A DNA stretch of 64,000 bases from NCBI RefSeq assembly GCF_012676905.1, contig NZ_CP051428.1:1169001-1233000 (forward strand). Direction: 5' to 3'. Under the pieces are notes generated by a model that ran no database searches, was not told where the DNA came from, and saw only the letters and a list, made by a program, of their open reading frames with translations. Numbering within the stretch: position 1 is the stretch's first letter; every line of letters begins with the position of its first letter. This stretch comes from Paenibacillus albicereus. Its GTDB lineage: Bacteria > Bacillota > Bacilli > Paenibacillales > Paenibacillaceae. Of the stretch, positions 10,813 through 29,519 are shown piece by piece. The translations under genes were made by a program, and so were the position numbers.

Positions 10813-10921
10813 ATTCGACAGTTTTTTCAGCTTCAGCTTGGTAGTATTCTTTTAATCCGATGCGAAAAGGAGGAAGTCTGCTGCTGGCAACATGCGATCG
10901 ACACCGATAGAGGAGGAAGCG

Positions 10922-11701: not shown

Positions 11702-11760
11702 GCGCTTGTCCCGCCTGATGCCGCGGGAATGCGGCTCGGGCAATACCCAATTTAGGGCAT

Positions 11761-11788
11761 TTGACGAAGCGGCTGTTTTGACTATGAT
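11761..11788 (+). promoter_or_regulatory. Sigma-A-type promoter for the trpC-led operon
   Basis: TTGACG at 11761-11766 and TATGAT at 11783-11788 are separated by 16 bases. The leader of roughly 105 bases to trpC shows no T-box or obvious TRAP-type triplet array. No other promoter this good was seen until the end of the 17 kb gene run. Confidence 0.6.
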
Positions 11789-11900
11789 GGACGCAGTTTC
11801 CCCATCCTTTTACATCAGCAGGCAAGAGCCGCGCCGAAACGCGCGCAGGACGGCCGGAAGCGGCGGACATCCGCCTATCGGAAGGAGCTGGAATAGAGAC

Positions 11901-12743
11901 ATGTTCATGCTGGACGAAATCGTCGCTCATAAGCGCATCGAGCTGGAACGCAAGAAAAAAGAGGCGAGCGCCGCCCGGCTGCGGGACAAGCTGGCGCAGG
12001 CGAGGGCGCCGCGGGATTTCCGGGGGGCGCTGAAGGCGCCGGGCATCTCGCTGATCGCCGAGATCAAGCGCAAGTCGCCGTCGAAGGGGGAATTCCGCGC
12101 GGAGTTCAAGCCGGAGGAGCTGGCGCTGGCGTATGAGGCTGGCGGCGCCAGGGCGATCTCGGTGCTGGCGGACGAGGCGTTTTTCGGCAACGGGGCGTCG
12201 GTCGTGGAGCAGGTGGCCAATCTCGGCGGGCTGTCGCTGCCGGTCATGTACAAGGACTTCATCGTGGACGAGTACCAAATTCTCGAGGCCCGCGCGGTCG
12301 GCGCGGACGCGGCGCTCGTCATCGTGCGCTCGGTGCCGGACGACAAGCAGCTGGCCGAGCTGCTCGCGCTGGCGGGAGAGCTCGGCATGGGCGTCATCGC
12401 GGAATGCTTCACGCCGGCCGACGCCGAGCGGGCGCTCGGAGCGGGGGCGGGAATCATCGGCATCAACAACCGCGACCTGCAGACGTTCGAGGTGGACATC
12501 CGGCGGGCCGGCCAGATCCGGGCGCTGCTCGGAGGGGACATCGTCACGGTAAGCGAAAGCGGCATGCACTCCCGCTCTGATGCGCTGCAGGCGCAAAGCG
12601 AGGGATTCGACGCGATGCTCGTCGGCGAGGCGATCCTGAGCGCCGCCGACCCGGGCGCGGCGGTACGACGGTTCGTCGGACGAGAGGCGGAAGGAACGGC
12701 GGCCGGAGAGGCTGCGGCAGGAAAGGAAGGGGTGCCTGGATGA
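11901..12743 (+). CDS. trpC: Indole-3-glycerol phosphate synthase
   Basis: Closes the indole ring from carboxyphenylamino-deoxyribulose phosphate to indole-3-glycerol phosphate. The 280-residue TIM barrel shows the N-terminal family start [28 protein letters not shown] (substrate phosphate and carboxylate contacts), [13 protein letters not shown] with the catalytic Lys, and [16 protein letters not shown]. The ATG at 11901 follows GAAGGAG by 13 bases; ATG 11907 is a possible alternative. The last 20 residues are an Ala/Gly/Glu tail. Its stop overlaps trpB by four bases. The usual upstream trpE, trpG and trpD and the trpF expected between C and B are absent here. Confidence 0.95.
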
Positions 12744-13933
12744 ACGAGTTCTACGGTCCGTTCGGCGGGGCGTTCGTGGCGGAGACGCTGATCCGCAATC
12801 TGGAGGAGCTGAAGCGGGAGTATGCGGCCGTCCGCGGGGACGAGGCGTTCCTCGCGCAGGTCGACCGCCTGCTCAAGGAGTTCGTCGGCCGGCCGACGCC
12901 GATCACGCCGCTGGAGCGGCTGAGCGGAGAGCAGGGCGGAGCGAGCGTGTACCTCAAGCGCGAGGACCTGACCCATACGGGGGCGCACAAGATCAACAAC
13001 GCGCTGGCGCAGGCGCTGCTGGCCAAGCGCATGGGCAAGAAGCGCATCGTCGCGGAGACGGGAGCGGGACAGCATGGCGTCGCCGTCGCGACCGCCTGCT
13101 GCAAGCTCGGCCTCGAGTGCGTCGTCTACATGGGCGCGGTCGACGCGGCCCGGCAGGCGCCGAACGTGCAGCGCATGAAGCTGCTCGGAGCCGACCTGCG
13201 GCTCGTCACGCTCGGACAGCAGACGCTCAAGGACGCGATCAGCGAAGCGATCCGCGACTGGATCGCGAACGTCGACACGACGCACTACCTGCTCGGGTCG
13301 GCGGTCGGTCCGCAGCCTTTTCCCGAGATCGTGCGCGATTTTCAGTCCGTCATCGGACGGGAAGCCCGCGAGCAGCTGCTGCGGGCGGAGGGTCGGCTGC
13401 CGGACGCGGTCGTCGCCTGCGTCGGCGGCGGCAGCAACGCGATCGGCATCTTCAGCGGCTTCCTGGACGATCCCGAGGTGCGCCTGATCGGCGTGCAGGC
13501 GGCGGGCGAGGGGCTGGAGTCGGGCAAGCACGCGGCTCCGCTCGTCCAAGGCACGCTCGGCATCATCCAGGGCAGTCTGACCTACATGCTGCAGGACGAG
13601 CACGGCGGCATCCGCGAGACGCACAGCATCGCGCCAGGCCTCGATTATCCGGGAGCCGGGCCGCAGCACAGCTACCTGAAGGACAGCGGACGCGTGGAGT
13701 ACACGTCGGCGACCGACCGCGAGGCGCTGGAGGCGTTCCGCTACCTGTGCCGGACGGAGGGCATCCTGCCCGCGCTGGAGTCGTCCCATGCGGTGGCGCA
13801 CGTGCTGAAGCTGGCGCCGGCGATGGAGCCGGGGCAGATCGTGCTGGTCAACCTGTCGGGACGAGGAGACAAGGATCTCAGCCAGGCCATCGAGGCGCTG
13901 GACAAGCTGGAGCTGGAGGGAGCGCGCGCATGA
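12740..13933 (+). CDS. trpB: Tryptophan synthase beta chain
   Basis: The PLP enzyme that joins indole and serine to form tryptophan, working with TrpA. It has 397 residues, normal for TrpB1. The PLP lysine is about residue 84 in [28 protein letters not shown] and the phosphate loop [10 protein letters not shown] are intact, as is the C-terminal serine motif NLSGRGDKD. The ATG overlaps the trpC stop and its own stop overlaps the trpA start by four bases. The first residues ([15 protein letters not shown]) are shorter than in many TrpB proteins but keep the FGG(A/R)FV start of the fold. Confidence 0.97.
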
Positions 13934-14739
13934 GCCGGATCGAAACGATGTTCAGCAGGCTGAAGGAGCGCGGCGAGAAGGCGCTCATCCCTTATCTGCC
14001 GTGCGGCTATCCCGAACGGGGCAGCACGCCGGGACTGATCCGCGCGATCGCGGATGCGGGCGCGGACATGATCGAGCTCGGCGTGCCGTACGCCGATCCG
14101 CTCGCCGACGGCCCCGCCATCCAGGAGGCGAGCCTGCAGGCCGTGCTTGGCGGCACGAGGCTGAGCGATTGCCTGGAGACGGTCGCCGGGCTGCGGCGCG
14201 AAGGGCTGGAGCTGCCGGTCGCGCTGATGGGCTACGCGAACTCCTTCCTCGCCTACGGCCTGGAGAAGCTGGCGCATGACGCGGCTCTGGCCGGCGTGGA
14301 CGGCTTCATCATCCCCGATCTGCCGTCGACGATGGCCGGGCCGTGGGTCGACGTGTTCCGTCCGCAGGGGCTGGACCTGATCTTCTTCATCGCGCCGACG
14401 ACGACGCCGGAGCGGGCGCAGGCGGTCGTCGAGCAGGGCAGCGGCTTCCTCTATTGCATCTCGGTCGCCGGCGTCACCGGCGAGCGGGAGCGGATGCCGG
14501 TGGAGCTGGAAGGCTTCCTGAACGAGGTCCGCCGCCGCACGGATCTGCCGCTCGCCGTCGGCTTCGGCATCTCCCATGCCGGCCACGTGGAGGAGGTCAG
14601 CGGCTACGCCGACGGCGCGATCGTCGGCAGCGCGCTCGTCAACCTGATCCGCCGCACGCCGGCGGACCGGGTCGTGGCCGAGGTCGGCCGGTTCATCGGC
14701 GAGCTCAAGCAGGCGACCGGCAAGGCTCAGCATGTCTGA
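13930..14739 (+). CDS. trpA: Tryptophan synthase alpha chain
   Basis: Cleaves indole-3-glycerol phosphate to indole and glyceraldehyde 3-phosphate and channels indole to TrpB. It is 269 residues long. The catalytic residues are Glu 49 in [12 protein letters not shown] and Asp 60 in [11 protein letters not shown], at the same numbers as in the enteric enzyme. The phosphate-binding end [13 protein letters not shown] and IVGSALV is present. Its stop overlaps the next gene, a sugar-type dehydrogenase, by eight bases. That overlap ties the trp genes to the cluster that follows, unlike a standard trp operon, which ends with trpA. Confidence 0.96.
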
Positions 14740-15775
14740 GCCGCTGCGTTCGCTGCTCGTCGGCTTCGGCCGCGCGGGCCGCGAGCTGCATCTGCCCTGC
14801 CTGCGCAAGGCGGCGGCGCTGCCGTCGCTGCGCGGTCGGCTGCAAGGCCCGGTCGGCGTGCTCGATCCGGGACTGACGGGAGCGGAGGGGACTCCGCCGG
14901 ACGCGGCGCTGCTGGCGGGATGGCCGGAGGCGGTGCGCGACTACCCGCCGGAGCGGACCGTCGTGCATGTGTGCACGCCGCCGGGCCAGCATGCCGAGGC
15001 GGCGGAGCAGGCGGCGCGGCACGGCTACTCCCGGCTGATCGTCGAGAAGCCGCTGGCCGGCACGCTGGAGGACGCGGATGCGATCCTCGCGCTGCAGCGG
15101 CGCTGCGGGCTGGACCTGCTCGTCGTCGCGAACTGGCTGTCCAGCTCGCTCTACAAGACGATCCGCGAGCGGATGGACGGCGGCCGCCTCGGGCGGCTGC
15201 GGCGGATCGAGGCGTGCCAGAACAAGGCCCGCCTCTCCCGCAGCCTGCGGCAGCCGGGCCACGACAGCGCGTTCGACGTCGAGCTGCCGCATCTGGCCGC
15301 GCTGGCGCTCGCGCTCGGCGGCGAGGAGGCGCAGGTGACAGGCGCGGCGGCCGAGGACATGGTCGTCGGCGAGCGGCAGCTGCCGCTGCTCGGACGGGCC
15401 GAGCTGACGCTGAAGCATGCTGCCGGAGCCGTTTCCCGCATCCGCTCCGATCTCATGAGCCCGGTGCGCGAGCGCAGGCTCGAGCTGGAATTCGACGACG
15501 CGGCCGTGACGGGCTATTTTCCGGCCAGCGGCGACGACAGCTACTCCTGGCTGGAGGTGCGGGGCAAGGACGGCCGGATCGTCGAGCGGCTGTGGCTGGA
15601 GGACGATCCGCTGACGGCCGTGATGGAGGAGTTCTATCTCCATTACGCCGGCATCGGACCGAGTCCGCTCAGCGGCGCCGCGTTCAACCGGGCGGTCATG
15701 AAGGTTCTGGAAGAAGCCAAGGCGATTCCCGCCCGCGAGCGGGCCGATCGCCACGCGGCCGCCGCCGGCGGCTGA
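14732..15775 (+). CDS. Gfo/Idh/MocA-family oxidoreductase 1
   Basis: An NAD(P)-dependent dehydrogenase of the Gfo/Idh/MocA superfamily, 347 residues, cytoplasmic. The dinucleotide motif GFGRAG is at residues 11-16, the strand motif VVHVCTPPGQH follows, and the hallmark EKP is at 105-107 in IVEKPLAGT. The C-terminal half should form the open alpha/beta substrate domain; AFDVELPHLAALAL may carry the His usually found near the catalytic site. Such enzymes oxidise a sugar or cyclitol hydroxyl to a ketone, often to feed a DegT aminotransferase, and two DegT genes follow directly. It is translationally coupled to trpA. Substrate unknown. Confidence 0.88.
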   Translation: MSEPLRSLLVGFGRAGRELHLPCLRKAAALPSLRGRLQGPVGVLDPGLTGAEGTPPDAALLAGWPEAVRDYPPERTVVHVCTPPGQHAEAAEQAARHGYSRLIVEKPLAGTLEDADAILALQRRCGLDLLVVANWLSSSLYKTIRERMDGGRLGRLRRIEACQNKARLSRSLRQPGHDSAFDVELPHLAALALALGGEEAQVTGAAAEDMVVGERQLPLLGRAELTLKHAAGAVSRIRSDLMSPVRERRLELEFDDAAVTGYFPASGDDSYSWLEVRGKDGRIVERLWLEDDPLTAVMEEFYLHYAGIGPSPLSGAAFNRAVMKVLEEAKAIPARERADRHAAAAGG

Positions 15776-15817
15776 GCAACGAACAAGAAGCATAGACGCC
15801 AGAGAGGGGCATCGATC

Positions 15818-16948
15818 ATGAGCATTGCCTTTTATACCGGAGCGCGCTCCTTCGAGGAGGCGTGGCCCCGGCTGTCGGAGCGGCTGGACCGGGTCATCGG
15901 CTGCGGCCAGTTCACGAACGGACCGGAGGTCGAGCAGCTGGAGCGGGCGCTGGAGCGCTACACGGGAGCGCGCCACGCGGTCGCCGTCGGCAACGCGACC
16001 GACGCGCTCATCCTGCTGCTGCAGGCGGCCGGCATCGGCCCCGGCGATGAGGTGATCGTGCCGGGCTACTCGTTCTTCGCGACGGCGTCCTGCGTCGCCC
16101 ACGCGGGCGCGACGCCGGTGTTCTGCGACATCGATCCGGCCACCTACGCGATCGATCCGGCCGGGATCGAGGCCAAGATCACCGAGCGCACGCGGGCGAT
16201 CATGCCGGTCCATCTGTTCACGCAGATGGCGGACATGCCGGCGATCCTCGACATCGCGCGGCGCCATGGGCTGCAGGTGCTGGAGGACAGCGCCGAGGGC
16301 ATCGGCATGTTCAGCGGCGGCGTGCACGCCGGGCTGCATGGACGAGGCGGCGTGCTGTCGTTCTTCCCGACGAAGACGCTCGGCGCGATCGGCGACGCCG
16401 GCATGATCCTGACGGACGACGACGCCCTGGCGGCCTCCGCCCGCCGGCTGCGCAGCCACGGCCAGGAGGCCGGCCAGCCGTACATCCATCATGAGATCGG
16501 CTGGAACAGCCGCATGGACGACGTGCAGGCGGCGGTCATCGCCGTGCGCCTGGAGTCGCTGGCGGCGAACATCGCCCGCCGCGCCCATCTGGCCGCGCTG
16601 TACGACCGCGAGCTGGCGGCCGTGCCGCAGGTGTCGACGCCGGTCATCAAGGAAAGCACGGAAGCGGCCAACGCCGTCTATTACGTCTATCTGATCGAAG
16701 CGGACGAGCGGGACGGACTCGTGGAGCATCTGACGGCGAGGGGCATCGGCACGGAGGTGTATTATCCGCTGCCGCTGCATCTGCAGCCGGTGTTCGCGGA
16801 GCTGGGCGGACGCCCGGGGCAGCTCCCCCATGCGGAGCGGGCGGCCGGACGCGCCGTCGGCCTGCCGATGTACCCCGATCTGACCGACGAGGAGGCGAGG
16901 CTCGTCTGCCGGACCATCCAGGACTTTTACGCGGAGGTGAAGTCATGA
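15818..16948 (+). CDS. DegT/DnrJ/EryC1-family aminotransferase 1
   Basis: A PLP-dependent sugar aminotransferase, 376 residues. The family signatures are GNATDALILLLQ (cofactor phosphate), VPGYSFFATA, LEDSAEGIGMF (Asp contacting the pyridine ring) and FFPTKTLGAIGDAG with the PLP lysine at about 186. The late motif GWNSRMDDVQAA and TEVYYPLPLHLQ are typical of the group acting on keto-sugars or keto-cyclitols. AGAGAGGGG lies before the ATG and the gene starts 42 bases after the dehydrogenase. Its stop overlaps the second DegT by four bases. WbpE-type nucleotide-sugar and kanosamine-type enzymes share these motifs, so the keto substrate is not fixed. Confidence 0.92.
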   Translation: MSIAFYTGARSFEEAWPRLSERLDRVIGCGQFTNGPEVEQLERALERYTGARHAVAVGNATDALILLLQAAGIGPGDEVIVPGYSFFATASCVAHAGATPVFCDIDPATYAIDPAGIEAKITERTRAIMPVHLFTQMADMPAILDIARRHGLQVLEDSAEGIGMFSGGVHAGLHGRGGVLSFFPTKTLGAIGDAGMILTDDDALAASARRLRSHGQEAGQPYIHHEIGWNSRMDDVQAAVIAVRLESLAANIARRAHLAALYDRELAAVPQVSTPVIKESTEAANAVYYVYLIEADERDGLVEHLTARGIGTEVYYPLPLHLQPVFAELGGRPGQLPHAERAAGRAVGLPMYPDLTDEEARLVCRTIQDFYAEVKS

Positions 16949-18075
16949 TGAACGTGCCGTTCTTCAACTACAGCGCCCGGTTCGCGCCGGACAAGGACGT
17001 CATCAAGGAGCTGGTGTACCGCTCGGGAACGACGGACCAGTTCATCCTCAAGGAAGACGTGCGGCGGCTGGAGGAGGCGATCTGCGCCTATACCGGGGCG
17101 GCCCACGCGGTCGCGGCGGCGAACGGCACGTCGGCGCTCGTCCTGCTGCTGCGGACGATGGGCGCAGGGCCCGGCGTCGACGTGCTGACGCCGGCGTTCT
17201 CGTTCATCTCCACGGCGAGCGCGATCCGGCTGCTCGGGGCGAACCCGGTGTTCGTCGACGCCGATCCGCGCACCGGCATGATGGATCCGGCCGATCTGGA
17301 GCGGCGCATCACGCCGCAGAGCCGGATCGTCATCCCGACGCATCTGTTCTCCGTCATGGCCGACATGAAGGCGATCCGCGCCGTCGCCCGCGAGCACGGG
17401 CTGCTCGTGCTGGAGGACAGCGCGGTCGCGCTCGGCGCGTCCCAGGACGGCGTGCCGGCGGGGCGCCACGGCGACGCGGGACTGTACTCCTTTTTCCCGG
17501 CCAAGCCGCTCGGCGGCATCGGCGACGGCGCCGTCATCGTGACCGACGACGAGGAGCTCGCCCGCGGCTGCCGCATGCTGCGCAACCACGGGCAGGACGG
17601 CGTCACCCGCTTCCTCCATCATCAGCTCGGCTACAACAGCCGCATGGACGAGGTGCTGGCCGGCTATCTGCTGCACAAGCTCGGCCGCATCGACCGGCTG
17701 CTGGATCGCCGCCGCGATCTGGCGGCCCGCTATCACGAGGCGTTCGCCGGACTCGACGTGCGGCTCGCCGTAACGGTCGACGACCACGAGAGCCGCATGT
17801 ACTATACCTATGTCGTGCAGGCCGAGCGGCGCGACGAGCTGCGCGCGGAGCTGGAGGAGGCCGGCGTGGAGACGCAGGTGTACTATCCGGCGGCGCTGCC
17901 GCTGCAGCCGGCGTTCGCGGACCTCGGCGCGCGTCCGGGCGACTATCCCGGAGCCGAGCGGTTCGCGAGCCGCTCGCTGGCGCTGCCGCTCTATCCCGAG
18001 ATGCCGGACGGCGACGTCGATGAGGTCATCCGCGCGGTCGTGTCGTTCCTGGCCAAGGAGCCCCAGCATGCTTGA
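16945..18075 (+). CDS. DegT/DnrJ/EryC1-family aminotransferase 2
   Basis: A second 376-residue PLP aminotransferase, clearly different from its neighbour in sequence, so not a recent duplicate. Signatures: ANGTSALVLLLRTM, LTPAFSFISTAS, LEDSAVALGASQDG and FFPAKPLGGIGDGAV with the PLP lysine at about 187. GYNSRMDEVLAGYL and TQVYYPAALPLQPAF close the active site. It starts four bases inside the first DegT gene and overlaps the following TIM-barrel gene by eight. Two aminotransferases suggest that the product has two amino groups or that two different keto units are built. Confidence 0.92.
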   Translation: MMNVPFFNYSARFAPDKDVIKELVYRSGTTDQFILKEDVRRLEEAICAYTGAAHAVAAANGTSALVLLLRTMGAGPGVDVLTPAFSFISTASAIRLLGANPVFVDADPRTGMMDPADLERRITPQSRIVIPTHLFSVMADMKAIRAVAREHGLLVLEDSAVALGASQDGVPAGRHGDAGLYSFFPAKPLGGIGDGAVIVTDDEELARGCRMLRNHGQDGVTRFLHHQLGYNSRMDEVLAGYLLHKLGRIDRLLDRRRDLAARYHEAFAGLDVRLAVTVDDHESRMYYTYVVQAERRDELRAELEEAGVETQVYYPAALPLQPAFADLGARPGDYPGAERFASRSLALPLYPEMPDGDVDEVIRAVVSFLAKEPQHA

Positions 18076-18976
18076 GCGGGGGGGCATCGCCCTGTCGGGC
18101 ATCGGAGACGAGGCGTCGGCCTCGCTGGAGGAGCAGGCGCGGGTCCACGCGGAGCTCGGCTGGACGGAGCTGGAGCTGCGCTCGGCGGAGGGGGCCGCGT
18201 TCGCCGACTGGGACGACGCCCTGACCGGCAAGGCCCGGCGGCTGCTGCTGGGCGCGGGGCTGAAGGCGTCGATCGCCGACTCGCGCATCGGCAACTGGGA
18301 GCGGCCGATTACCTATCCGTTCGAGCGGGAGCTGGAGGAGCTGGAGCGCTGCGCCGAGCGGCTGCTGCGGCTCGGCGGTCGCGGCCTGCGGGTCATGTCC
18401 TGGCCGAACGACGGCTGGAGCGAGACCGACTGGGAACAAAGCGTGCTGGAGCGGATGGACCGGCTCGCCGAGCGGGCCGGCCGCTGCGGCGTCACGCTGC
18501 TGCATGAGAACTGCGCCGGCTGGGCCGGCAGCGACCCCGAGCGGGCGCTGCGGCTCGTCGGGACCGTGAACCGCCCGTCGCTGCGCCTGCTGATGGATAC
18601 CGGCAACGGCATCGCCTACCGCTATTCGGCGCCGGACTACCTGCGCCGGGCGCTGCCTTACGTCGAGCATGTGCATGTCAAGGACGGGCGGCTGCAGGAC
18701 GGCAAGGCGGTGTACACGCCGCCCGGGCGCGGCGACGCCGGCGTCGCCGAGTGCCTCGGCCTGCTGCTGGACGCCGGCTACGCAGGCCTGCTCGCGATCG
18801 AGCCGCATCTGCATGTCGTGCCGCATCTGGGCGAGCGCGGCGGCGGCGCGGGACAGCTGGAGGCATACGCGGCGTACGGCCGCGAGCTGGAGCGGCTGCT
18901 CGCCGAGGTCCGGGCGGACGCCCGCGCCGAAACGGCCGCCGCCGAAGCGGCCGCCGCCGGGGAGGCGGGAGCGTGA
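18068..18976 (+). CDS. Sugar phosphate isomerase/epimerase-like TIM-barrel protein
   Basis: A 302-residue AP-endonuclease/xylose-isomerase-like TIM barrel. The metal-site residues are visible in order: LLHENCAGW (Glu), LLMDTGNGIAYR (Asp), EHVHVKDGR (His, Asp) and AIEPHLHVV (Glu). Members isomerise, epimerise or dehydrate sugars, keto-sugars and inososes. It starts eight bases within the previous gene and its stop overlaps the GTG of the M20 gene by four. The C-terminal 20 residues are Ala/Glu-rich, like the ends of several genes here. In this setting it could rearrange the keto-sugar made by the dehydrogenases; no substrate can be named. Confidence 0.85.
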   Translation: MLERGGIALSGIGDEASASLEEQARVHAELGWTELELRSAEGAAFADWDDALTGKARRLLLGAGLKASIADSRIGNWERPITYPFERELEELERCAERLLRLGGRGLRVMSWPNDGWSETDWEQSVLERMDRLAERAGRCGVTLLHENCAGWAGSDPERALRLVGTVNRPSLRLLMDTGNGIAYRYSAPDYLRRALPYVEHVHVKDGRLQDGKAVYTPPGRGDAGVAECLGLLLDAGYAGLLAIEPHLHVVPHLGERGGGAGQLEAYAAYGRELERLLAEVRADARAETAAAEAAAAGEAGA

Positions 18977-21410: not shown

Positions 21411-21476
21411 CCGGAGGGCGGAGAAGCGGACAACACTCATAATCAACGGCTCGGCATATGAAGGAGGCAATCGGCA

Positions 21477-22394
21477 ATGGCACGGAAAGTCGGATTGATC
21501 GGAATGGGCGTCATCTCTAAATTCTATGTGCACGCGATGAAGAATGAAGCGGGCCTGCCGCAGCTGGCGGCCGTCTGCGATCTCCATCCCGAGCGCATCG
21601 CCGCTTTTCAGGAGGAAGGGCTGCATGCCTATACGGACTACCGCGAGCTGCTGCGCCAGCAGAATCTCGACGCGGTCATCGTCAACGTCCCGAACGACAA
21701 GCATTACGAAATCTGCCGCGAGGCGATGCTGGCGGGCAAGCATGTGTGCTGCGAGAAGCCGATGACGCTGACGCTGCAGGAAGCCGCGGAGCTCGCCGCC
21801 TGGTCGCGCAGCACGGGCAAGACGATGTTCACCGCGTTCCACCGCCGCTACAACGTGCATTTCCAGCAGGCGCTGGAGCGCCTCTCGACCCGCGACCAGA
21901 TCGCCTCGGTCGAGGCGTGCTACCTGGAGAAGATCGAGGAGCATGCCGGGGAGGACCGCTGGTACCTCGATCCGGCGCGCTGCGGCGGAGGCTGCATCGC
22001 CGACAACGGCCCGAACGTGTACGATACGCTCGCCTACTTCCTCGGCCGGCTGGACGTCGTCTCGGCGGACATCTCCTGGACCGGCAAGGCCGATACCGAG
22101 GCGCGCGTGGAGCTCGTGTCCGAGACGGGCGTTCCGGTAACGGTGCATCTGGACTGGGCATACCCTCACGGCGAGAAGAAGGAAGTGCTCATCCGGCTGA
22201 AGGACGGCACGGAGCTGCGCGTCGACATGCTGGCGGGCTTCGAGGCGTTCAAGTCGTCGCTGTTCCACGAGTACGCGGAAATCCTGCGCGACTTCGACGC
22301 CAAGATCGAGGCGGGCGGCTGCCACGGGGAGGACGGGCTGGACGCGGTGCGGCTCGTGCGCGACACGTACTTGGCGGAGACGGTCCGCTCGTGA
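21477..22394 (+). CDS. Gfo/Idh/MocA-family oxidoreductase 2
   Basis: A second superfamily member, 305 residues. The dinucleotide motif is LIGMGVISKFY (about 7-17), the middle strand is VIVNVPNDKHYEI and the EKP signature is at 93-95 in CCEKPMTLT. GGGCIADNGPNVYDTLAYFLG looks like the active-site segment with an Asp-Asn pair in place of the more usual Asp-x-x-x-His. GAAGGAGG precedes the ATG. WbpB-type enzymes of this superfamily oxidise C3 of UDP-GlcNAc-uronate before a DegT enzyme aminates it; a nucleotide-sugar 6-dehydrogenase two genes downstream makes this model worth testing. Substrate unknown. Confidence 0.88.
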   Translation: MARKVGLIGMGVISKFYVHAMKNEAGLPQLAAVCDLHPERIAAFQEEGLHAYTDYRELLRQQNLDAVIVNVPNDKHYEICREAMLAGKHVCCEKPMTLTLQEAAELAAWSRSTGKTMFTAFHRRYNVHFQQALERLSTRDQIASVEACYLEKIEEHAGEDRWYLDPARCGGGCIADNGPNVYDTLAYFLGRLDVVSADISWTGKADTEARVELVSETGVPVTVHLDWAYPHGEKKEVLIRLKDGTELRVDMLAGFEAFKSSLFHEYAEILRDFDAKIEAGGCHGEDGLDAVRLVRDTYLAETVRS

Positions 22395-22801
22395 AGCTCG
22401 CCGACAAGCGGGTCGTGCGCGGCCGCTTCGTGAAGCTGCTGCATCACAAGCGCACGGACCGCGGCATGCGGCTGATGGAGGAGCGCACCCGCTGCATCCG
22501 GCAGGGCGACATCCATGAGCTGGTCACGACGACGCAGGCGTCGGCTGTTGCCGGCGATGCGATCGATCGCGTCGGCTTCCTCGGCTTCGCCGAATTCGAG
22601 GCCGGCGGCGTCGTCCAGCGCGGGGATCGCGTCGTTGCCGGAGGACGGGTGCTCGGCGAGGTGCTCGGCTTCGACGAGTGTCATTTTCCGAACCATTACA
22701 ACATCCTGATCGCAGCCGCGGAGCTGCTGGCGTCAGGCGATGTCGGGCTGGAGGTCGAGCAGGCGGTACGATTCGAGCCGGGAGAAGAGATCGGCGATTG
22801 A
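22391..22801 (+). CDS. Uncharacterised 136-residue cluster protein
   Basis: I do not recognise this protein with confidence. The GTG at 22391 overlaps the previous stop by four bases, the same coupling seen through the cluster. It begins VKLADKRVVRGRFVKLLHHK and has a compact, strand-rich look, with repeated Val/Gly turns (DRVVAGGRVLGEVLGFDECHF) reminiscent of a small beta barrel. No Cys pair, P-loop or membrane segment is seen. FDECHFPNHYNIL is the most polar conserved-looking stretch and could be an active or binding site. The close coupling says it is part of the pathway. A new enzyme, carrier or binding protein are all possible. Confidence 0.75.
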   Translation: MKLADKRVVRGRFVKLLHHKRTDRGMRLMEERTRCIRQGDIHELVTTTQASAVAGDAIDRVGFLGFAEFEAGGVVQRGDRVVAGGRVLGEVLGFDECHFPNHYNILIAAAELLASGDVGLEVEQAVRFEPGEEIGD

Positions 22802-22817
22802 AGGAGGAGAACCCCAT

Positions 22818-24164
22818 ATGGAGCTGCTTTCGAAGCTGGAGAGCCGGCAGGCGCGGATCGGCGTCGTCGGCATGGGATATGTCGGGCTGCCGCTGGCGCT
22901 TGAGTTCGCCGGGGCGGGCTTCGCGGTGACGGGCATTGACCTGTCCGAGGACAAGGTCGCCCGCTTGAGGCGAGGAGAGTGCTACATTCCCGACGTCCAG
23001 GAAAAGATGACGGCGGCGGCGCTGGCCCGCTTCGAGGCGACGACGGACTTTGCCGCGATCGCCGGCCTCGACGCGGTCTGCATCTGCGTGCCGACGCCGC
23101 TGACGCGCAATCAGGAGCCCGATCTGAGCTGCATCACGTCGGCGGTCGAGCAGCTCGGCGCCTATCTGAAGCCGGGGGCGCTCGTCGTGCTCGAGAGCAC
23201 GACGTATCCCGGCACGACGGACGAGCTCGTCGCCTCGGCGCTCGCGCCGGACGGGCGGCAGGCGGGCCGGGACTATTTCCTGTGCTACTCGCCCGAGCGG
23301 GTCGATCCCGGCAACAAGACGTACCGCATCCGCAACACGCCCAAAGTCGTCGGCGGCAGCACGCCGCGCTGCCTGGAGCTCGGCGTCAAGCTGTACGAGT
23401 CGATCGTCGAGCGCGTCGTGCCGGTCAGCTCGACGCGCGCGGCCGAGATGTCCAAGCTGCTTGAGAATACGTTCCGCAGCGTCAATATCGCCTTCATTAA
23501 CGAGATCGCCCAGCTGTGCGACCGCATCGAGGTCAACGTCTGGGAGGTCATCCAGGCGGCGGCGACAAAGCCGTTCGGCTTCATGCCGTTCTACCCCGGT
23601 CCCGGCATCGGCGGCCACTGCATTCCGCTCGACCCGATGTATCTGTCGTGGAAGGCCAAGGGCGAGAACTTCTTCAGCCGCTTCATCGAGCTGTCGCAGG
23701 ACCTCAACCGCAACATGCCGCGGTACGTCGTGCAGAAGACGGCCGATCTGCTCAACCGCTCCGGCAAGAGCGTCAAGAATTCGAGCATCCTGCTGCTCGG
23801 CATGGCCTACAAGCCGGATGTCGGCGACTGGCGCGAGTCGCCGAGCCTGGAAATCTACGATCTGCTGCATGAAAAAGGAGCGCGGCTCACCGTGCACGAC
23901 CCGCACTGCGCCGGCGTGCGCACGGAGAAGGGGCATCGGCCGGAGCAGGCGGCGGAGCTCGACCCGCACCGTCTCGCCTCCTACGACTGCATCCTGCTGC
24001 TGACCGCGCACTCGGCGTTCGACCTGGGGGAGATCGCCCGCTCCGGCGTGCCCGTGCTCGACACGCGCAACGCCTTCGCCGGCTACGACGCCGCCTCCAT
24101 CGTGAGGATCGGCGACGCCATGCCGGGACCGGACGAGCGCGAGCGCGCGCTCGCCATCGTCTGA
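22818..24164 (+). CDS. Nucleotide-sugar 6-dehydrogenase (WbpA-like)
   Basis: A 448-residue UDP-glucose/GDP-mannose dehydrogenase family enzyme that oxidises C6 of a nucleotide sugar twice to a uronic acid with two NAD+. The NAD motif is GMGYVGLPLALEF; ICVPTPLTRNQEPDLS and SPERVDPGNKTYRI match the UDP-N-acetyl-hexosamine branch rather than UDP-glucose. The catalytic Cys is about residue 268 in PGIGGHCIPLDP, and TRAAEMSKLLENTFRSVNI supplies the structural Lys/Asn. AAGGAGGAG precedes the ATG. Together with a Gfo/Idh enzyme and a DegT enzyme it recalls the WbpA-WbpB-WbpE route to a 3-amino-uronate. No glycosyltransferase accompanies it. Confidence 0.92.
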   Translation: MELLSKLESRQARIGVVGMGYVGLPLALEFAGAGFAVTGIDLSEDKVARLRRGECYIPDVQEKMTAAALARFEATTDFAAIAGLDAVCICVPTPLTRNQEPDLSCITSAVEQLGAYLKPGALVVLESTTYPGTTDELVASALAPDGRQAGRDYFLCYSPERVDPGNKTYRIRNTPKVVGGSTPRCLELGVKLYESIVERVVPVSSTRAAEMSKLLENTFRSVNIAFINEIAQLCDRIEVNVWEVIQAAATKPFGFMPFYPGPGIGGHCIPLDPMYLSWKAKGENFFSRFIELSQDLNRNMPRYVVQKTADLLNRSGKSVKNSSILLLGMAYKPDVGDWRESPSLEIYDLLHEKGARLTVHDPHCAGVRTEKGHRPEQAAELDPHRLASYDCILLLTAHSAFDLGEIARSGVPVLDTRNAFAGYDAASIVRIGDAMPGPDERERALAIV

Positions 24165-24197
24165 CTTCACGCATCCACCGCAGAAAGGGAGATCCTC

Positions 24198-24869
24198 ATG
24201 TTCACAGCCATCCATGTCGCTGAACAAGTCCGGCGCGAGCTGGGCGAGGTCGAGGTGTACGGGCGCGAGATCGGCCTGGACGAAAGGGCGGCCGCCGCGC
24301 CGCCCGACACCGCCGCCTGGAACGAAATCCATGCCCGCTGGCGCGGCCGCAGCAAGGCGGACGTCGCGGACGATCCGCGCATCCGCGCCTACAGCGAGTT
24401 CTACCGCAGCATCGGGCTTGATCCGAAAAAAACGCCGCCGTCGGTGCAGAACCTGCTGCAGCGGTTCTTCATCAAGGACGAGCTGGCGCGGCTGCCGCTG
24501 ATCCATCCGGCCGTCGACGCGGTCAACCTGGCCGCGCTCGAGCACCGGATTCCGCTCGGCGCGTTCGACTCCGGCGCGGTCGTCGGCAGCCTGCGGCTCG
24601 ACTTCACGCAGGGGGGCGAGCCGTTCCAGGGACTCGGCGAGCCGGAGGCGGCCGAGCTGCCTGCCGGCGTGCTCGTGCTCGCCGACGGCGAGAAGGTGCT
24701 CTCGCGCTTCTGCTACCGCGACGGCGAGGCGCAAAAGGTGACGGCGGCGACGCGCTCCGTCTGGCTGCTCGGCTGCCAGGTGCCGGGCATCCCGCGCGCC
24801 GAGGTGGAGGCCGCGCTCGACGCGGCCGCCGCCCGTCTGGAGCGGACCGGCGTTCGGACGGCCGGATGA
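24198..24869 (+). CDS. B3/B4 domain protein (PheRS-beta editing-domain-like)
   Basis: A 223-residue free-standing B3/B4 domain. In phenylalanyl-tRNA synthetase beta chains this domain hydrolyses wrongly charged tRNA; stand-alone relatives occur widely in bacteria with little known function. The core reads IRAYSEFYRSIGLDPKKTPPS, then PLIHPAVDAVNLAALEH and LGAFDSGAV, followed by AELPAGVLVLADGEKVLSRF, which fits the family closely. GAAAGGGAG precedes the ATG. It ends in an ATGA overlap with the exporter gene. In this setting it could clear tRNA charged with a toxic amino acid analogue, a form of self-protection; that is inference. Confidence 0.85.
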   Translation: MFTAIHVAEQVRRELGEVEVYGREIGLDERAAAAPPDTAAWNEIHARWRGRSKADVADDPRIRAYSEFYRSIGLDPKKTPPSVQNLLQRFFIKDELARLPLIHPAVDAVNLAALEHRIPLGAFDSGAVVGSLRLDFTQGGEPFQGLGEPEAAELPAGVLVLADGEKVLSRFCYRDGEAQKVTAATRSVWLLGCQVPGIPRAEVEAALDAAAARLERTGVRTAG

Positions 24870-26260
24870 GCGGCCGTCTCGGCTCTCCCCTCGCCCGCGC
24901 CGGCGGCTTGATCCGGCGCTATGACTCGGCGCTCTGGATCCGCATCTGCGGCAACGCCGTCACGGCGACGACGACGTTCCTGATCCGCCCGTTCCTGGCG
25001 CTCTACCTGTACGAGCAGTCGGGCGGCTCGCTGCTGCTCGCGATGCTCGTCATCGGCCTGCAGCCGTTCGCCTCGATGGTGACCAGCTTCGTCGGAGGCG
25101 GGCTGAGCGACCGGCTCGGCCGCCGCCCGGTCATGATCGGCGCGCTGCTGCTGCAGGCGGCGTGCATGGGCGCGTACGCCTTCGCCGAGCAGGTGTGGAC
25201 ATTCGCGGCCATCACCGCCGTCATGGGCGTCGGCTCGGCGCTGTTCAACCCGGCCGCCAACGCGATGGTCGCGGACGTCGTCCCTGGCGAGCGGCAGCGC
25301 GAGGTGTTCGCGCTGCTGCACACCGCCTCCAACGTCGGCGCCGCCTTCGGCCCGGCGGTCGGGCTGCTGCTGCTGCGCGCCGGGGAGAACGTCGTGTTCG
25401 CCGCCGGAGCGGCGCTGCTGCTCGCGTACCTCTTCCTCGTGCTGTCCAAGGTGCCGGAAACGAGGCCGGGCTCGGCCCGGAGGCAGGCGGGCGCGGTCGC
25501 CCGAGGAGCGGACGCGGAGCAGCAGGGCGCGTCGCCCGGAGCCGCCGATGGGGCCGATGCGGCCGAGGGCAGGACGCCGGCCGTGCCGGAAGCCGCCGAT
25601 GCGGCCGATGCGGCCCGGGGCAGGACGCTGTCCGCGCCGGATGCCGCCGCGCGCCGCCGGGCGCTGCTCGGCATGACATCGCTGGCGATGCCGATCGGCC
25701 TCGTCTTCGCGCTCGTCATCTCGATCCTGCCGTTCCACTTCGGCGAGTCGTTCGCCCGTCCCGAGGACGTGCTCGCCTCGCTGATGACGTTCAACGGCAT
25801 CCTCGTCATCTCGCTGCAGCTGTGGATCATCGCGCGCACGAAGCGGATGTCCGCCTCCTTCGCGGCGGCCGTCTCCTACGGCATGTTCGCCGCCGTGTCG
25901 GTCGGCTACGCATTTTCGACCGTCCTGCTGCTGCTGTTCGTCGTCGAGCTGGTGTTCTCCGTGGCGGAGATGCTGATCGGGCCGCATCTGCAGAACACGG
26001 TCGCCGAGCTCGCTCCGGAGCAGGAGCGCGGCTATTACTTCGCCATCTTCGGCCTGCACATGCACGTTCCGCTCGCGATCGGCCCGGTGCTCGGCGGCCT
26101 GCTCTACTCCGCGACGGACGGCGCCGTGCTGTTCTCGGCGCTCGGCGCGCTGTTCGTCGCCTGCGGCATCCTGCAGGCGCTGCTCATCCGCCGCATCCGC
26201 AGCGGCGGCCTGGGCGCCGCGCGCCGCGCCGGCTCCGCCGCCATCGACGCCTCGGCCTGA
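24866..26260 (+). CDS. MFS transporter, probable product exporter
   Basis: A 464-residue major facilitator with 12 predicted membrane segments. Motif A is visible as GGLSDRLGRRPVMIG between helices 2 and 3, and a helix-4/5 motif as GPAVGLLLLRAG. The central cytoplasmic loop between helices 6 and 7 (about residues 203-260) is stretched by Ala/Asp/Gly-rich near-repeats (AADAARGRT type) and encoded by GC-rich DNA. It is coupled to the B3/B4 gene by four bases. Drug-efflux relatives such as MdtH-type proteins share this layout. Placement in the operon next to ligases suggests export of, and resistance to, the cluster product. Confidence 0.9.
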   Translation: MSGRLGSPLARAGGLIRRYDSALWIRICGNAVTATTTFLIRPFLALYLYEQSGGSLLLAMLVIGLQPFASMVTSFVGGGLSDRLGRRPVMIGALLLQAACMGAYAFAEQVWTFAAITAVMGVGSALFNPAANAMVADVVPGERQREVFALLHTASNVGAAFGPAVGLLLLRAGENVVFAAGAALLLAYLFLVLSKVPETRPGSARRQAGAVARGADAEQQGASPGAADGADAAEGRTPAVPEAADAADAARGRTLSAPDAAARRRALLGMTSLAMPIGLVFALVISILPFHFGESFARPEDVLASLMTFNGILVISLQLWIIARTKRMSASFAAAVSYGMFAAVSVGYAFSTVLLLLFVVELVFSVAEMLIGPHLQNTVAELAPEQERGYYFAIFGLHMHVPLAIGPVLGGLLYSATDGAVLFSALGALFVACGILQALLIRRIRSGGLGAARRAGSAAIDASA

Positions 26261-26327
26261 AGCCGGGGCGGCTTTCCGTTTGACCGCAAGCGCAGAACAT
26301 CCCCAAGAGGGCATAAGGAGGAGCATT

Positions 26328-27587
26328 ATGACCACATCCCGGAAAATCGCCGTCATCCACCGCTTCGGCGACGTTGTGCTCGGCGGCTTCGTCGACTACT
26401 CCCGCGTCATCGACCACTCCCGCGACCAGGTCGTCTATTTCGTCAACGCGCGGGGACGCAAGGACATCGCCGCCGTCGAGCCGCTGGCGGCCGAAGTGCA
26501 CGAGCTGGCCGAGCTGGAGGCGTTCGAGCCGCTGCGCGCCGCGTTCGAGGGCGCTTCCGAGCGGCTGGGCGGCTTCGACCTGCTGCTCGCGCTGTCGGAG
26601 TTCGACCTGAGCCATGCGGCGCGGCTGCGCTCCGAGCTCGGCATTCCCGGCGTCGGCTTGGACCGCATCTCCCTGTACCGGGACAAGATCGTCATGAAGG
26701 AGCGGCTGCGGCGGGACGGCATCCGCGTGCCTCGCTTCCTCGATGGAGCGGAGGAGGACGCGGCGGTCGCGTTCGCCCGCGAGACCGGCTATCCGGTCAT
26801 CGTCAAGCCGCGCCGGGGCGCGGCGAGCCAGGGCGTGCGGAAGGCGGAGGACGAGCGGCAGCTGCGCGAGGCGCTGCGCGCCGTGCATGAGGCGGGCACG
26901 GCCGGGGACTGCCAGGTGGAGGAGTTCGTCGCCGGCCCGATCTTCCATATCGACGGACTGGTCAAGGACGGCGAGCTGGCGTTCTACGCGCCGTCGCAGT
27001 ATGTCGGAGGCTGCCTCGGCTTCGCCGAGGGGCGGCCGAACGGATCGTTCATCGTCACCGACCGGCAGGAGCTGCGGGACCGCCTGCAGCGCTTCACGGA
27101 GGAGGTGCTGCGCTCGCTGGAGCTGAGCGACGGCTGCTTCCATCTGGAGGTGATCGACCGGGACGGCCGCGAGGCGGTGTTCCTGGAGATCGGCGCGCGC
27201 ATGGGCGGGGCGGAGACGCCTTTCCTGACCGTCGATCTGTACGGCGTCAACCTGTGCGAGGAGTGGATGCGCATCGAGCTGGGCACATTCGAGCCGCTGC
27301 AGGCTCCGCAGGAGGGCGTGCACGGCGGGCTGATCCAGTTCCCCGAGCCTCCCGGCACTCCGGCCGAGGTCGTCTCGGTCTCCTCGCTGCTCGGCGTCGT
27401 ACCGGAAATCTATGACGAGTGGACGCCCAAGCCGGGCGAGATTCTCGACGGCAAGGGCTCCTACTACCATATCAGCGGGCGCTACCGGCTGCGCGGCGAG
27501 AGCGAGGCGGCGGTCGAGAAGGCGATCCTTCGGGCGATGGGGCTGTTCCGCATCGAAGCGCGGCCGCTGGCGGCCGTGGAGGGCTAG
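26328..27587 (+). CDS. ATP-grasp ligase 1
   Basis: A 419-residue ATP-grasp protein, likely a carboxylate-amine ligase that forms an acyl phosphate and joins it to an amine. The pre-ATP domain is residues 1-115; the ATP-grasp fold follows with SLYRDKIVMKERLRRDGIRV, YPVIVKPRRGAASQGVRK (ATP lysine and glycine loop), CQVEEFVAGPIFHIDG and VFLEIGARMGGAETP (metal-binding Glu and Arg). The ATG at 26328 is behind AAGGAGGAG. It lies 67 bases after the exporter gene and five bases before a second ATP-grasp gene. The enzymes known to look like this join amino acids into dipeptides or attach them to sugars; the partner here is unknown. Confidence 0.9.
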   Translation: MTTSRKIAVIHRFGDVVLGGFVDYSRVIDHSRDQVVYFVNARGRKDIAAVEPLAAEVHELAELEAFEPLRAAFEGASERLGGFDLLLALSEFDLSHAARLRSELGIPGVGLDRISLYRDKIVMKERLRRDGIRVPRFLDGAEEDAAVAFARETGYPVIVKPRRGAASQGVRKAEDERQLREALRAVHEAGTAGDCQVEEFVAGPIFHIDGLVKDGELAFYAPSQYVGGCLGFAEGRPNGSFIVTDRQELRDRLQRFTEEVLRSLELSDGCFHLEVIDRDGREAVFLEIGARMGGAETPFLTVDLYGVNLCEEWMRIELGTFEPLQAPQEGVHGGLIQFPEPPGTPAEVVSVSSLLGVVPEIYDEWTPKPGEILDGKGSYYHISGRYRLRGESEAAVEKAILRAMGLFRIEARPLAAVEG

Positions 27588-27592
27588 GACGG

Positions 27593-29215
27593 ATGGAGCA
27601 GACGAGGAAGAAGCTGCTCGTCGTGGCCGATCTCGGCGGCTCGCCGCCCGATCTCCGGACGCTCGCGGAGCTGGCGGACGTCTACGTGTACATCCCGCGC
27701 CCGAGCGCTGTTACGGCCCGCTACATGGAGGACGTCGGGCGCTACGCGCACGGCGTGCTCAAGGAGCGTACCGCCTGCCCTCCCGGCGGCTACGAGCATC
27801 CGGCCAGCGTCACGTTCACCGGAGCGCGTCCGTACACGCTGACGGAGGAGCAGCTGGCGGACCGGATCGCCGAGGCCGCCGTGCTGTTCGGCGCGGACGG
27901 CATCCTGTTCGGCGGCGCGGAAAATATCGTGCTGTCCGTCGCCAAGGCGGCGGAGCGGCTCGGCCTGCGCTCGGCCGGCGTGCACGGCGCCGTGCAGGCG
28001 CGCGGCAAGCTGGAGATGCGCCAGGCGTTCCGCGCCGGCGGAGCGCCCGGCCCGGACTTCCGGCCGATCTACGGCGAGCGCGATCTGGCCGCGGCCGCGC
28101 GGGAGCTCGGCTATCCGCTCGTGCTCAAGCCGACGTATCTCGCCTGCTCGATCGGCGTCACGCGGCTCGACGGCAGCCGCGATCCGGCGGAGGTGTTCCG
28201 CGAGGTGCAGGCCAGCCTCGGCAGCTCGGAGGAGGACCGGCTGCTGTTCGGCGGCGAGTGCCTGTTCCTCGCCGAGACGTACATGGAGGGCTGCGCCGAG
28301 GATTGGTACGGCGAGCTGGCGCCGCTGTACGGCGACTACGTCTCCGTCGAGGGCATGATGGTGGACGGCGTCTACCATCCCGTGGCGATCACGGACAAGG
28401 CGCCGCAGCACAGCGAGTTCACGGAAACGGCGCATCTCGTGCCGTCCGCGCTCGATGCCGAAGCGCAGCGGATCATCGTGGAGGCGTGCCGGCTCGCCAA
28501 CGAGGCGCTCGGCCTGCGCACCTGCCCGACCCACACCGAGGTCAAGCTGCTGAAAGGCCGCCGCGTCGGCATCATCGAGACGGCCGCCCGCTTCGGCGGC
28601 TGGAACATCGTGCCGCAGCTGCGCGACGTGTACGGCATCGATATGACGCGCGCCTGGGCGCTCGCCGTGCTGTACGGCTCGGCGAACGGCCTGCCGCCGT
28701 CGGCACTGCGCGAAGCGCCGTCCGCGCGCTGCAACCTGCGCCTCTATCTGGAGGACGACGCGCGCACGCAGGTCGGCGGCGCGTACGTCTATGCGGGCTA
28801 CGAGCGGGAAGGGCTGCTGCCGGACGGCGTGCGGCTCGCGGCGGAGCAGGAGCTGCCGGTCGGCAGCGTCGTGCGGCGCGTCGCCGGGCAGAACGCGATG
28901 AGCTTCGTCTCGACGCTGCAGCTCGAGGCGGAGCGGCCGCAGGCGCTTGCGGCCGCCGTGCGCCGCATCCGTTCCGCCGTGCGGCTGCGGCTGGCGGCGG
29001 CGGACGGGGCGGCCGGACTGGCCGCGGCGGAAGCGCCGGGCGAAGGGGCGGCAGCGGAAGCGTCGGCCGGCGCGGCCGGACTGGCCGCGGCGGAAACGCC
29101 GGGCGAAGGGGCGGCAGCGGAAGCGTCGGCCGGCGCGCGGCCGGCAGCCGCTGCGGAAGGCGAGCCGGAGCCCGCTCGCGACGGGCAGCCGCTGCAGGAG
29201 TCGTTCTCGTTCTGA
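27593..29215 (+). CDS. ATP-grasp ligase 2 with C-terminal repeat tail
   Basis: A 540-residue ATP-grasp ligase, more distant from ligase 1 than a recent copy would be. Landmarks are KLEMRQAFRAGGAPGPDF, YPLVLKPTYLACSIGV (ATP lysine), FLAETYMEGCAEDWYG and the metal-binding pair THTEVKLLKGRRVGIIET followed by AARFGGWNI, as in BacD-like amino acid ligases. The catalytic part ends near residue 470. The last 70 residues are Ala/Gly/Glu-rich and include two copies of a 21-residue repeat, an unusual tail for this family. It is the last gene of the run, five bases after ligase 1. Two successive ligases could build a tripeptide-like or doubly acylated product. Confidence 0.88.
   Translation: MEQTRKKLLVVADLGGSPPDLRTLAELADVYVYIPRPSAVTARYMEDVGRYAHGVLKERTACPPGGYEHPASVTFTGARPYTLTEEQLADRIAEAAVLFGADGILFGGAENIVLSVAKAAERLGLRSAGVHGAVQARGKLEMRQAFRAGGAPGPDFRPIYGERDLAAAARELGYPLVLKPTYLACSIGVTRLDGSRDPAEVFREVQASLGSSEEDRLLFGGECLFLAETYMEGCAEDWYGELAPLYGDYVSVEGMMVDGVYHPVAITDKAPQHSEFTETAHLVPSALDAEAQRIIVEACRLANEALGLRTCPTHTEVKLLKGRRVGIIETAARFGGWNIVPQLRDVYGIDMTRAWALAVLYGSANGLPPSALREAPSARCNLRLYLEDDARTQVGGAYVYAGYEREGLLPDGVRLAAEQELPVGSVVRRVAGQNAMSFVSTLQLEAERPQALAAAVRRIRSAVRLRLAAADGAAGLAAAEAPGEGAAAEASAGAAGLAAAETPGEGAAAEASAGARPAAAAEGEPEPARDGQPLQESFSF
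29009..29134 (+). repeat. Two 63-base direct repeats inside the ATP-grasp 2 gene
   Basis: Copies at 29009-29071 and 29072-29134 differ at one or two bases and keep frame, each encoding 21 residues of the Ala/Gly/Glu-rich tail. The near identity points to a recent duplication. Confidence 0.9.
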
Positions 29216-29519
29216 GCGCTCCCGGCAGCGGTTCCAGTCGTCGTAAGGGCTCCTCGTAGAAGATCGGGGTGCTGACGACGAATCAGCTCGTTAGGAGGCT
29301 GGAATCGGGGTGCCGATCGAGCTAACGACGTGTGGCGAGCTTAGCCGCAAAAAAGTCAGGCAAAACGAGCTGAATGAGGGCGTTTCAGACGTGCAAGCGT
29401 CTGACGCGTCGCTAGCTTGTCATAAGCGCGACAAAAGGGCCGCTAAGCGTACCAGGAATCGTAAGCTTAGAACGGACTCAGCTCGCGGACAGCATTCCAC
29501 TGCTCAAACGGACGTCCAG
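29216..29519. other. Gene-free stretch after the biosynthetic run
   Basis: No convincing gene, promoter or hairpin was found. A 73-codon open frame at 29310-29531 lacks a Shine-Dalgarno and has a random-looking Arg/Ser-rich composition. The motif TCGGGGTGC occurs twice and AGCTCGTTAG / GAGCTAACGA occur in opposite orientation, hinting at a decayed inverted repeat. Confidence 0.5.

Follow-up and report, generated by a model that had tools for sequence, protein, structure and literature searches.

A conserved operon joining sugar-type enzymes to second copies of tryptophan enzymes in Paenibacillus albicereus: a candidate sugar-fed parallel tryptophan pathway

The 64,000-nucleotide stretch of Paenibacillus albicereus DNA analysed here (the window, in which coordinates are counted) belongs to a 5.17 Mb single-contig genome and carries an operon of 16 genes, all on the + strand, extending from a trpC paralogue to the second of two ATP-grasp ligase genes (11901-29215). 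Pfam and NCBIfam matches give the order trpC, trpB, trpA, Gfo/Idh (Gfo1), DegT (DegT1), DegT (DegT2), an AP_endonuc_2 TIM barrel, M20, Ldh_2 (Ldh2) and a second Gfo/Idh (Gfo2), followed by DUF6917, a nucleotide-sugar 6-dehydrogenase (NSDH), B3/4, a major facilitator superfamily (MFS) exporter and the two ATP-grasp ligases. Judged from gene content and sequence comparison, the operon would be a parallel tryptophan pathway with a sugar, not chorismate, as its starting point, a reading to which a probability of about 0.6 is given.

Second copies of the tryptophan enzymes

The first three genes of the operon encode members of the tryptophan synthesis families:

11901..12743, + strand, cluster TrpC (indole-3-glycerol phosphate synthase paralogue), 280 amino acids; NF001377, 269.4 bits against a cut-off of 260
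12740..13933, + strand, cluster TrpB, 397 amino acids; TIGR00263, 594 bits against a cut-off of 392
13930..14739, + strand, cluster TrpA, 269 amino acids; TIGR00262, 233.7 bits against a cut-off of 102

The genome has its own trp operon at ~2.31 Mb (trpE, trpD, trpC, trpF, trpB, trpA), with whose products the cluster proteins share 36% (TrpC), 57.5% (TrpB) and 40% (TrpA) identity. Compared with cluster TrpCs from other Bacillota and from Pseudomonadota, the window TrpC shows 48-60% identity (that of Paenibacillus pasadenensis, at 95%, being set aside); with those of actinomycetes it shows 42-45%. In a phylogenetic tree, 12 cluster TrpCs formed a single clade with support 100, separate from 11 host-own TrpCs. 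Alignments showed that the cluster Trp enzymes keep the residues presumed to be catalytic. Beside these residues, all 15 cluster TrpCs compared (one of them partial) differ from 11 ordinary copies in having Y or F for the R before KDF, E(C/T)F for EVH, and FGG or FGN for FQG, and in 14 of the 15 the T of VLTD is replaced by A.

Recurrence of the gene set in three phyla

DUF6917 served as the marker for finding relatives. It was present in 12 of 392 genomes sampled from the order of the window genome, in 2 of the 8 same-genus genomes listed, in 29 of 397 genomes from the order of Lentzea and in 1 of 398 genomes of the family to which the Pseudomonas match belongs (the one being that match itself), while a named genome collection yielded 16 loci. 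Forty-eight loci, not mutually independent, were compared by tblastn (E 1e-8) over stretches of ~7-50 kb. A conserved cassette composed of Gfo1, DegT1, DegT2, TIM, M20, Ldh2, Gfo2 and DUF6917, usually with NSDH, was found in Bacillota, Pseudomonadota and Actinomycetota. The order of the operon is not due to chance, as all three phyla show these genes in an identical or almost identical arrangement. The preliminary description of this DNA, made from the letters alone, had asked whether the genes stay together in related genomes, and the answer is a cassette conserved in order far beyond them.

Paralogous trpC-B-A genes accompany the cassette in 17 of the 48 loci, which belong to 11 Bacillota (including Bacillus changyiensis and Halalkalibacter), Pseudomonas zanjanensis, Algicola, Rugamonas and three actinomycetes. 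Thirteen of these clusters also contain trpF (in G673 the side expected to hold it was not covered) and nine contain trpD. The P. pasadenensis record has the same operon, with proteins 86-97% identical to those of the window. A further 20 loci carry the whole or part of the cassette and no trp genes, and the remaining 11 have DUF6917 with none of the other cassette genes. The occurrence of the cassette without trp genes, in 13 of these 20 loci beside a UbiA-type prenyltransferase, indicates a separable unit, transferable to different second halves, and its building block is probably aromatic.

Several individual loci can be mentioned here. The 13 prenyltransferase loci lie within the actinomycete set L083-L096. 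In nine actinomycete loci a shared gene family was seen, of which the copy tested is an EF-hand protein. On plasmid pT136b of Rhizobium sp. T136, a conjugative plasmid of a root-nodule isolate, the order is ectB-Gfo1-DegT1-DegT2-TIM-M20-Ldh2-Gfo2-histidine N-methyltransferase-like-MFS-ATP-grasp (L109, 6153-18394). A plasmid of Streptomyces sp. NBC_00490 (L108, 14992-17319) has DUF6917 fused N-terminally to an annotated 1-deoxy-D-xylulose-5-phosphate synthase, adjoining Gfo1-TIM-M20-Ldh2-Gfo2, with no DegT or trp genes in the stretch. Distant DUF6917 genes outside the cassette form another set (L037-L040, L024-L029): in L037 the gene lies beside ornithine-cyclodeaminase-like, Cys/Met-metabolism pyridoxal-phosphate-type and B12-binding genes, and in betaproteobacterial bins the DUF6917 genes have another context in common.

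Absence of the anthranilate-making step

In 16 of the 17 genomes with trp-type clusters, that of the window among them, no ANTHRANILATE synthase gene (chorismate-binding, PF00425) was found on the cluster contig or within ~150 kb. Because the clusters keep up to five of the steps that follow anthranilate and lack the step that makes it, their gene content suggests that another starter is used.

Convergent changes in TrpD

The nine cluster TrpDs were compared with 18 ordinary copies, positions being numbered as in the TrpD of the window genome. In a careful tree, a single clade of the nine was rejected (p 0.0013), as was one uniting the cluster TrpDs of Bacillota and Pseudomonadota (p 3e-5), and the Rugamonas cluster TrpD grouped with the TrpD of its own genome (support 96/87). 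All nine nevertheless have S or T in place of A155, have lost H164 and have L in place of A165, whereas A155 is found in 18/18 ordinary copies and H164 and A165 in 17/18 each. These positions sit 14, 5 and 4 residues before Arg169, which is kept in 9/9 together with the GTGGD motif and which is tentatively equated with R193 of the Mycobacterium tuberculosis enzyme. Two papers place this R193 in helix alpha-8 and describe it as binding the anthranilate carboxylate (PMC9835598, PMC5537072). The simplest reading of the TrpD and TrpC changes is that the substrate would have an anthranilate-like carboxylate on a different ring. In one genome (G012), a cyclic di-GMP-I riboswitch was seen directly upstream of the cluster trpD (L047:4008-4099).

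The sugar-type cassette

The genes between trpA and the B3/4 gene are the following:

14732..15775, + strand, Gfo1, Gfo/Idh/MocA dehydrogenase, a conserved neighbour; PF01408
15818..16948, + strand, DegT1, sugar-type aminotransferase; PF01041, 393 bits
16945..18075, + strand, DegT2, sugar-type aminotransferase; PF01041, 346 bits; PDB matches 8e75, WbpE and QdtB
18068..18976, + strand, TIM-barrel sugar isomerase/epimerase-like protein (AP_endonuc_2); PF01261
18973..20301, + strand, M20 deacylase-like hydrolase; PF01546
20298..21410, + strand, Ldh2, Ldh_2 oxidoreductase; PF02615
21477..22394, + strand, Gfo2, Gfo/Idh/MocA dehydrogenase; PF01408 and PF22725; PDB matches DgpA and L-arabinose 1-dehydrogenase
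22391..22801, + strand, DUF6917 protein, small and mostly beta, 136 amino acids; PF21891, 174.5 bits
22818..24164, + strand, NSDH; TIGR03026, 423.8 bits against a cut-off of 189.8

The PDB matches of NSDH include Cap5O and a UDP-N-acetylmannosaminuronic acid dehydrogenase, a likeness to 6-dehydrogenases of the N-acetylhexosamine type, and among the sugar-specific equivalogs listed for it none reached its cut-off. Among PDB entries, DegT1 scores highest with 7b0d, a protein named glutamine--scyllo-inositol transaminase (277 bits), and next with WbpE (268 bits). WbpE, which acts on a 3-keto uronic acid, and QdtB are 3-keto-sugar aminotransferases. The M20 protein could, as proposed here, take off an N-acetyl group. 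DUF6917 has 17 columns invariant across 26 sequences, and its AlphaFold model (predicted local distance difference test, pLDDT, 94) gave no Foldseek match at E 0.001.

In its 6-dehydrogenase, Gfo/Idh dehydrogenase and DegT aminotransferase families, the cassette resembles WbpA/WbpB/WbpE, which form a diamino-uronate pathway acting on a uridine diphosphate sugar. The window operon differs from that system in having no glycosyltransferase, in its two Gfo and two DegT genes and in the presence of TIM, M20, Ldh2 and DUF6917.

B3/4 protein, exporter and ligases

The operon ends with four genes:

24198..24869, + strand, stand-alone B3/4 protein, proposed trans-editing deacylase for mischarged tRNA; PF03483, 72.9 against 29.3 bits
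24866..26260, + strand, MFS exporter; PF07690
26328..27587, + strand, ATP-grasp ligase 1; PF13535/PF02786
27593..29215, + strand, ATP-grasp ligase 2, BacD-like L-amino-acid ligase with a repetitive tail; PDB BacD 3vmm, 294 bits over residues 4-465

The best PDB match of the B3/4 protein is the canavanyl-tRNA deacylase CtdA (E 5e-15). The gene was found in 17/17 trpC-B-A loci and in 0/31 other loci; among cassette loci alone the comparison is 17/17 against 0/19 (Fisher p 1e-10, a value inflated by related genomes). B3/4 thus goes with the trp half and not with the sugar half of the clusters, a distribution that fits a product mistaken by synthetases for an amino acid. CtdA is reported to deacylate tRNA-Arg mischarged with canavanine and to protect cells from this antimetabolite (PMC10018355). 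The window protein is a stand-alone relative; CtdA guards tRNA-Arg against canavanine, whereas the B3/4 gene sits in a biosynthetic cluster and was found only with trp genes.

The preliminary description saw the operon as built around its two ATP-grasp ligases, which the comparison with relatives does not bear out: in the stretches read, the ligases and the MFS exporter occur in 4 of the 14 trpC-B-A loci of Bacillota and Pseudomonadota (the window, P. pasadenensis, P. xylaniclasticus and G369) and are the variable part of the gene set. EamA-type exporters are present in 13 of the 17 trpC-B-A clusters, and the actinomycetes G614 and G646 have ATP-grasp proteins of their own. In NCBIfam, ligase 2 reaches 319 bits with the BacD equivalog, below the cut-off of 850, and ligase 1 reaches 37 bits with the dapdiamide synthase DdaF equivalog, below the cut-off of 840. 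In the logic of bacilysin, an amino-acid antimetabolite is capped with an amino acid and then pumped out. The match of ligase 2 over residues 4-465 to BacD, the alanine-anticapsin ligase, recalls that system, from which the operon differs in that its ligase falls below the equivalog cut-off and that no anticapsin genes are among the 16. Repeats occur in the tail of the ligase 2 gene (28991-29158) and within the MFS gene (25536-25649).

Operon layout and genomic setting

With the starts chosen, neighbouring genes overlap by 4 or 8 bases at 9 of the 15 junctions and are separated by gaps of 5-67 bases at the other 6. The anatomy given in the preliminary description is in this way confirmed: the 16 genes all run in one direction and lie at the positions reported, most of them overlap by 4-8 bases as it said, and its family assignments hold in Pfam and NCBIfam, with the protein it left unnamed proving to be DUF6917. 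Its statement that nonribosomal peptide synthetase (NRPS), polyketide synthase and glycosyltransferase genes are missing also stands, as none of these families matched among the 16 genes (Pfam, E 0.001). Two features lie upstream:

10892..11701, + strand, LuxR-type (GerE) regulator adjoining the operon; PF00196
11761..11788, + strand, promoter-like site TTGACG-16-TATGAT between the LuxR-type gene and trpC, called on 10/12 consensus matches only

Two such promoter-like sites were found in 11500-30200, against a mean of 1.0 in shuffled sequences. On the 3' side of the operon there are tandem repeats at 29513-29783 (43-base unit, ~6 copies) and 30075-30204 (42-base unit, ~3 copies).

Proposed pathway

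In the pathway envisaged, NSDH, Gfo1/Gfo2, DegT1/DegT2, TIM, M20, Ldh2 and DUF6917 would turn an N-acetyl-hexosamine, activated by a nucleotide, into a mimic of anthranilate, namely an ortho-amino (hetero)aryl carboxylic acid. TrpD would then add phosphoribose, TrpF would rearrange the product, TrpC would decarboxylate it and close the pyrrole ring, and TrpA and TrpB would exchange glycerol phosphate for serine to give a tryptophan mimic; this part is deduced from enzyme identity, paralogy and the convergent TrpD changes. TrpC, TrpB and TrpA, with the TrpD and TrpF of relatives, are family members of the ordinary trpEGDFCBA pathway and have its catalytic residues. The clusters differ from that pathway by the lack of a nearby trpE-type gene in 16/17 cases, by the separate TrpC clade, by TrpDs altered near the presumed anthranilate site and by the presence of amino-sugar genes in the same operon.

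One candidate for the ring is 3-aminopicolinate (C6H6N2O2), which could arise from N-acetylglucosamine with no carbon lost and three waters lost: C1 would become the carboxylate, the deacetylated N2 would close on C6 and the amine would stand at C3. It would lead to 4-azatryptophan ([M+H]+ 206.092), or to a 5-hydroxy form ([M+H]+ 222.087) if C6 were fully oxidised. An alternative candidate is a pyrrole analogue, as in congocidine; a pyrrolopyrrole-alanine would have [M+H]+ 194.092. Congocidine is not known to use Trp enzymes; it is likened here by route, in that a sugar is turned into a heteroaromatic amino-carboxylic acid, and not by gene sequence. The precedent is a sugar-derived precursor of this kind, 4-acetamidopyrrole-2-carboxylate, and congocidine is assembled by an NRPS, a further difference (PMC4047045).

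As its link with trpCBA and its likeness to CtdA suggest, the B3/4 protein would strip the mimic from mischarged tRNA and so protect the producer. For the window lineage, the two ATP-grasp ligases could cap the mimic with one or two amino acids, and the resulting peptide could leave through the MFS protein, in the manner of Ala-anticapsin. The predicted product is probably toxic and of antibiotic type. The complete scenario is held more tentatively, at somewhat under even odds: a horizontally spread route would rebuild the post-anthranilate tryptophan steps on a sugar-derived heteroaromatic, giving a hetero-tryptophan (e.g., 4-azatryptophan) that poisons translation in rivals, with B3/4 protecting the maker and Paenibacillus releasing an ATP-grasp-made peptide prodrug.

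Evidence against and alternative explanations

A number of observations weigh against a sugar-fed parallel pathway. A trpD gene is lacking in 8 of the 17 trpC-B-A loci, including that of the window, and neither a second trpF nor a second ordinary-type trpD was found in the genomes of the window, P. pasadenensis or P. xylaniclasticus; in the window lineage these two steps would have to be served by the genome's ordinary trp operon, whose TrpD has ordinary residues. No second tryptophanyl-tRNA synthetase is present in the window genome. The trees of TrpB, TrpA and TrpF neither prove nor reject a single cluster clade, and the two Pseudomonadota TrpDs as one clade were not rejected (p 0.14). The strict criterion by which two columns separate cluster from ordinary TrpDs (0 columns in 80 ordinary pseudo-sets, 1 in 1/129 mixed sets, 0 in 5000 shuffles) was chosen after viewing the alignment, and with a looser criterion the count is unremarkable in clade-preserving controls. 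Leu at 165 does not appear to be unique to cluster TrpDs, because a far TrpD homologue of the window genome at 4.56 Mb (L122, 4.5555-4.5590 Mb; 28% identity, no GTGGD), outside the 18 ordinary copies, has Leu aligned there; similar weak matches were seen in G223 and G012. On the sugar side, the aminocyclitol name of the best DegT1 match is unfavourable, and NSDH and DUF6917 are not universal among cassette loci: the stretches read for Rugamonas, G369 and others yielded no NSDH, and the Rhizobium sp. T136 cassette had no trp, NSDH or DUF6917 in the stretch read. Finally, Pseudomonas zanjanensis has, on the opposite strand and ~1 kb after NSDH, beyond a LuxR-type gene, a trpG and a trpE-like gene (the latter scoring under the TrpE equivalog cut-offs), and the trp copies of this species might make ordinary tryptophan. 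The pair (L019:16949-19074, also L105) may belong to a neighbouring separate cluster, as beyond it are LuxI-like, AMP-ligase-like and other genes resembling one (partly read from translations), with the LuxR-type regulator lying between the cassette cluster and this set.

That the extra trp genes supply ordinary tryptophan, for the ATP-grasp ligases to couple to a cassette-made amino sugar, is considered unlikely. Such a supply would agree with the retained catalytic residues, with the trpE-like/trpG pair adjoining the Pseudomonas locus, with the ordinary TrpD and TrpF of the window genome and with the general ability of ATP-grasp ligases to join carboxylic acids to amines, but it sits poorly with the absence of a trpE-type gene near 16/17 clusters and with the ligases not found in 10 of the 14 trpC-B-A clusters of Bacillota and Pseudomonadota, and it leaves the convergent TrpD changes and the B3/4-trp link unexplained. 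The product proposed in the preliminary description, in which the two ligases would attach amino acids to a di-amino sugar or aminocyclitol and trpCBA would be a passenger, is distinctly improbable: it is trpCBA, not the ligases, that accompany the cassette across three phyla, and relatives add trpD and trpF, even if the two Gfo/DegT pairs, the scyllo-inositol transaminase match of DegT1 and the resemblance of both DegTs to sugar aminotransferases, and the presence of two ligases and an exporter would suit it. The probability is smaller still that the cassette product inhibits tryptophan biosynthesis, with the trp copies standing in for its targets as insensitive versions, since up to five enzymes would need resistant copies simultaneously and B3/4, linked with trp and not with the cassette, would be left unexplained, although substitutions around the TrpD and TrpC active sites and cassettes without trp in other actinomycetes speak for this idea.

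For the sugar-fed parallel pathway, the trpCBA paralogues and the trpF and trpD of relatives form a parallel route with no nearby trpE-type gene in 16/17 cases, and for this reason it is more likely that the amino-sugar genes feed that route than that they yield an aminocyclitol joined to amino acids. Of the product reading in the preliminary description, the non-NRPS, export-coupled biosynthetic operon with amino-sugar-type enzymes and ATP-grasp ligases is upheld, and the probable parallel tryptophan pathway was missed, trpCBA being paralogues. Its remark that no described pathway has this gene set agrees with the literature search, limited to open-licence papers, in which none was found.

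Biological significance

If the proposed pathway is correct, bacteria would have a second tryptophan pathway whose starter does not come from the shikimate route, and tryptophan enzymes, TrpD repeatedly, would have been recruited to the same new substrate. The clusters would be a natural source of tryptophan analogues, together with a ready enzyme set for making them, and would represent amino-acid antimetabolites of a new class, whose protection factor is built in. The trp-less cassettes near UbiA-type prenyltransferases in actinomycetes would then point to yet another family of aromatic natural products derived from sugars, one that rule-based cluster finders may overlook.

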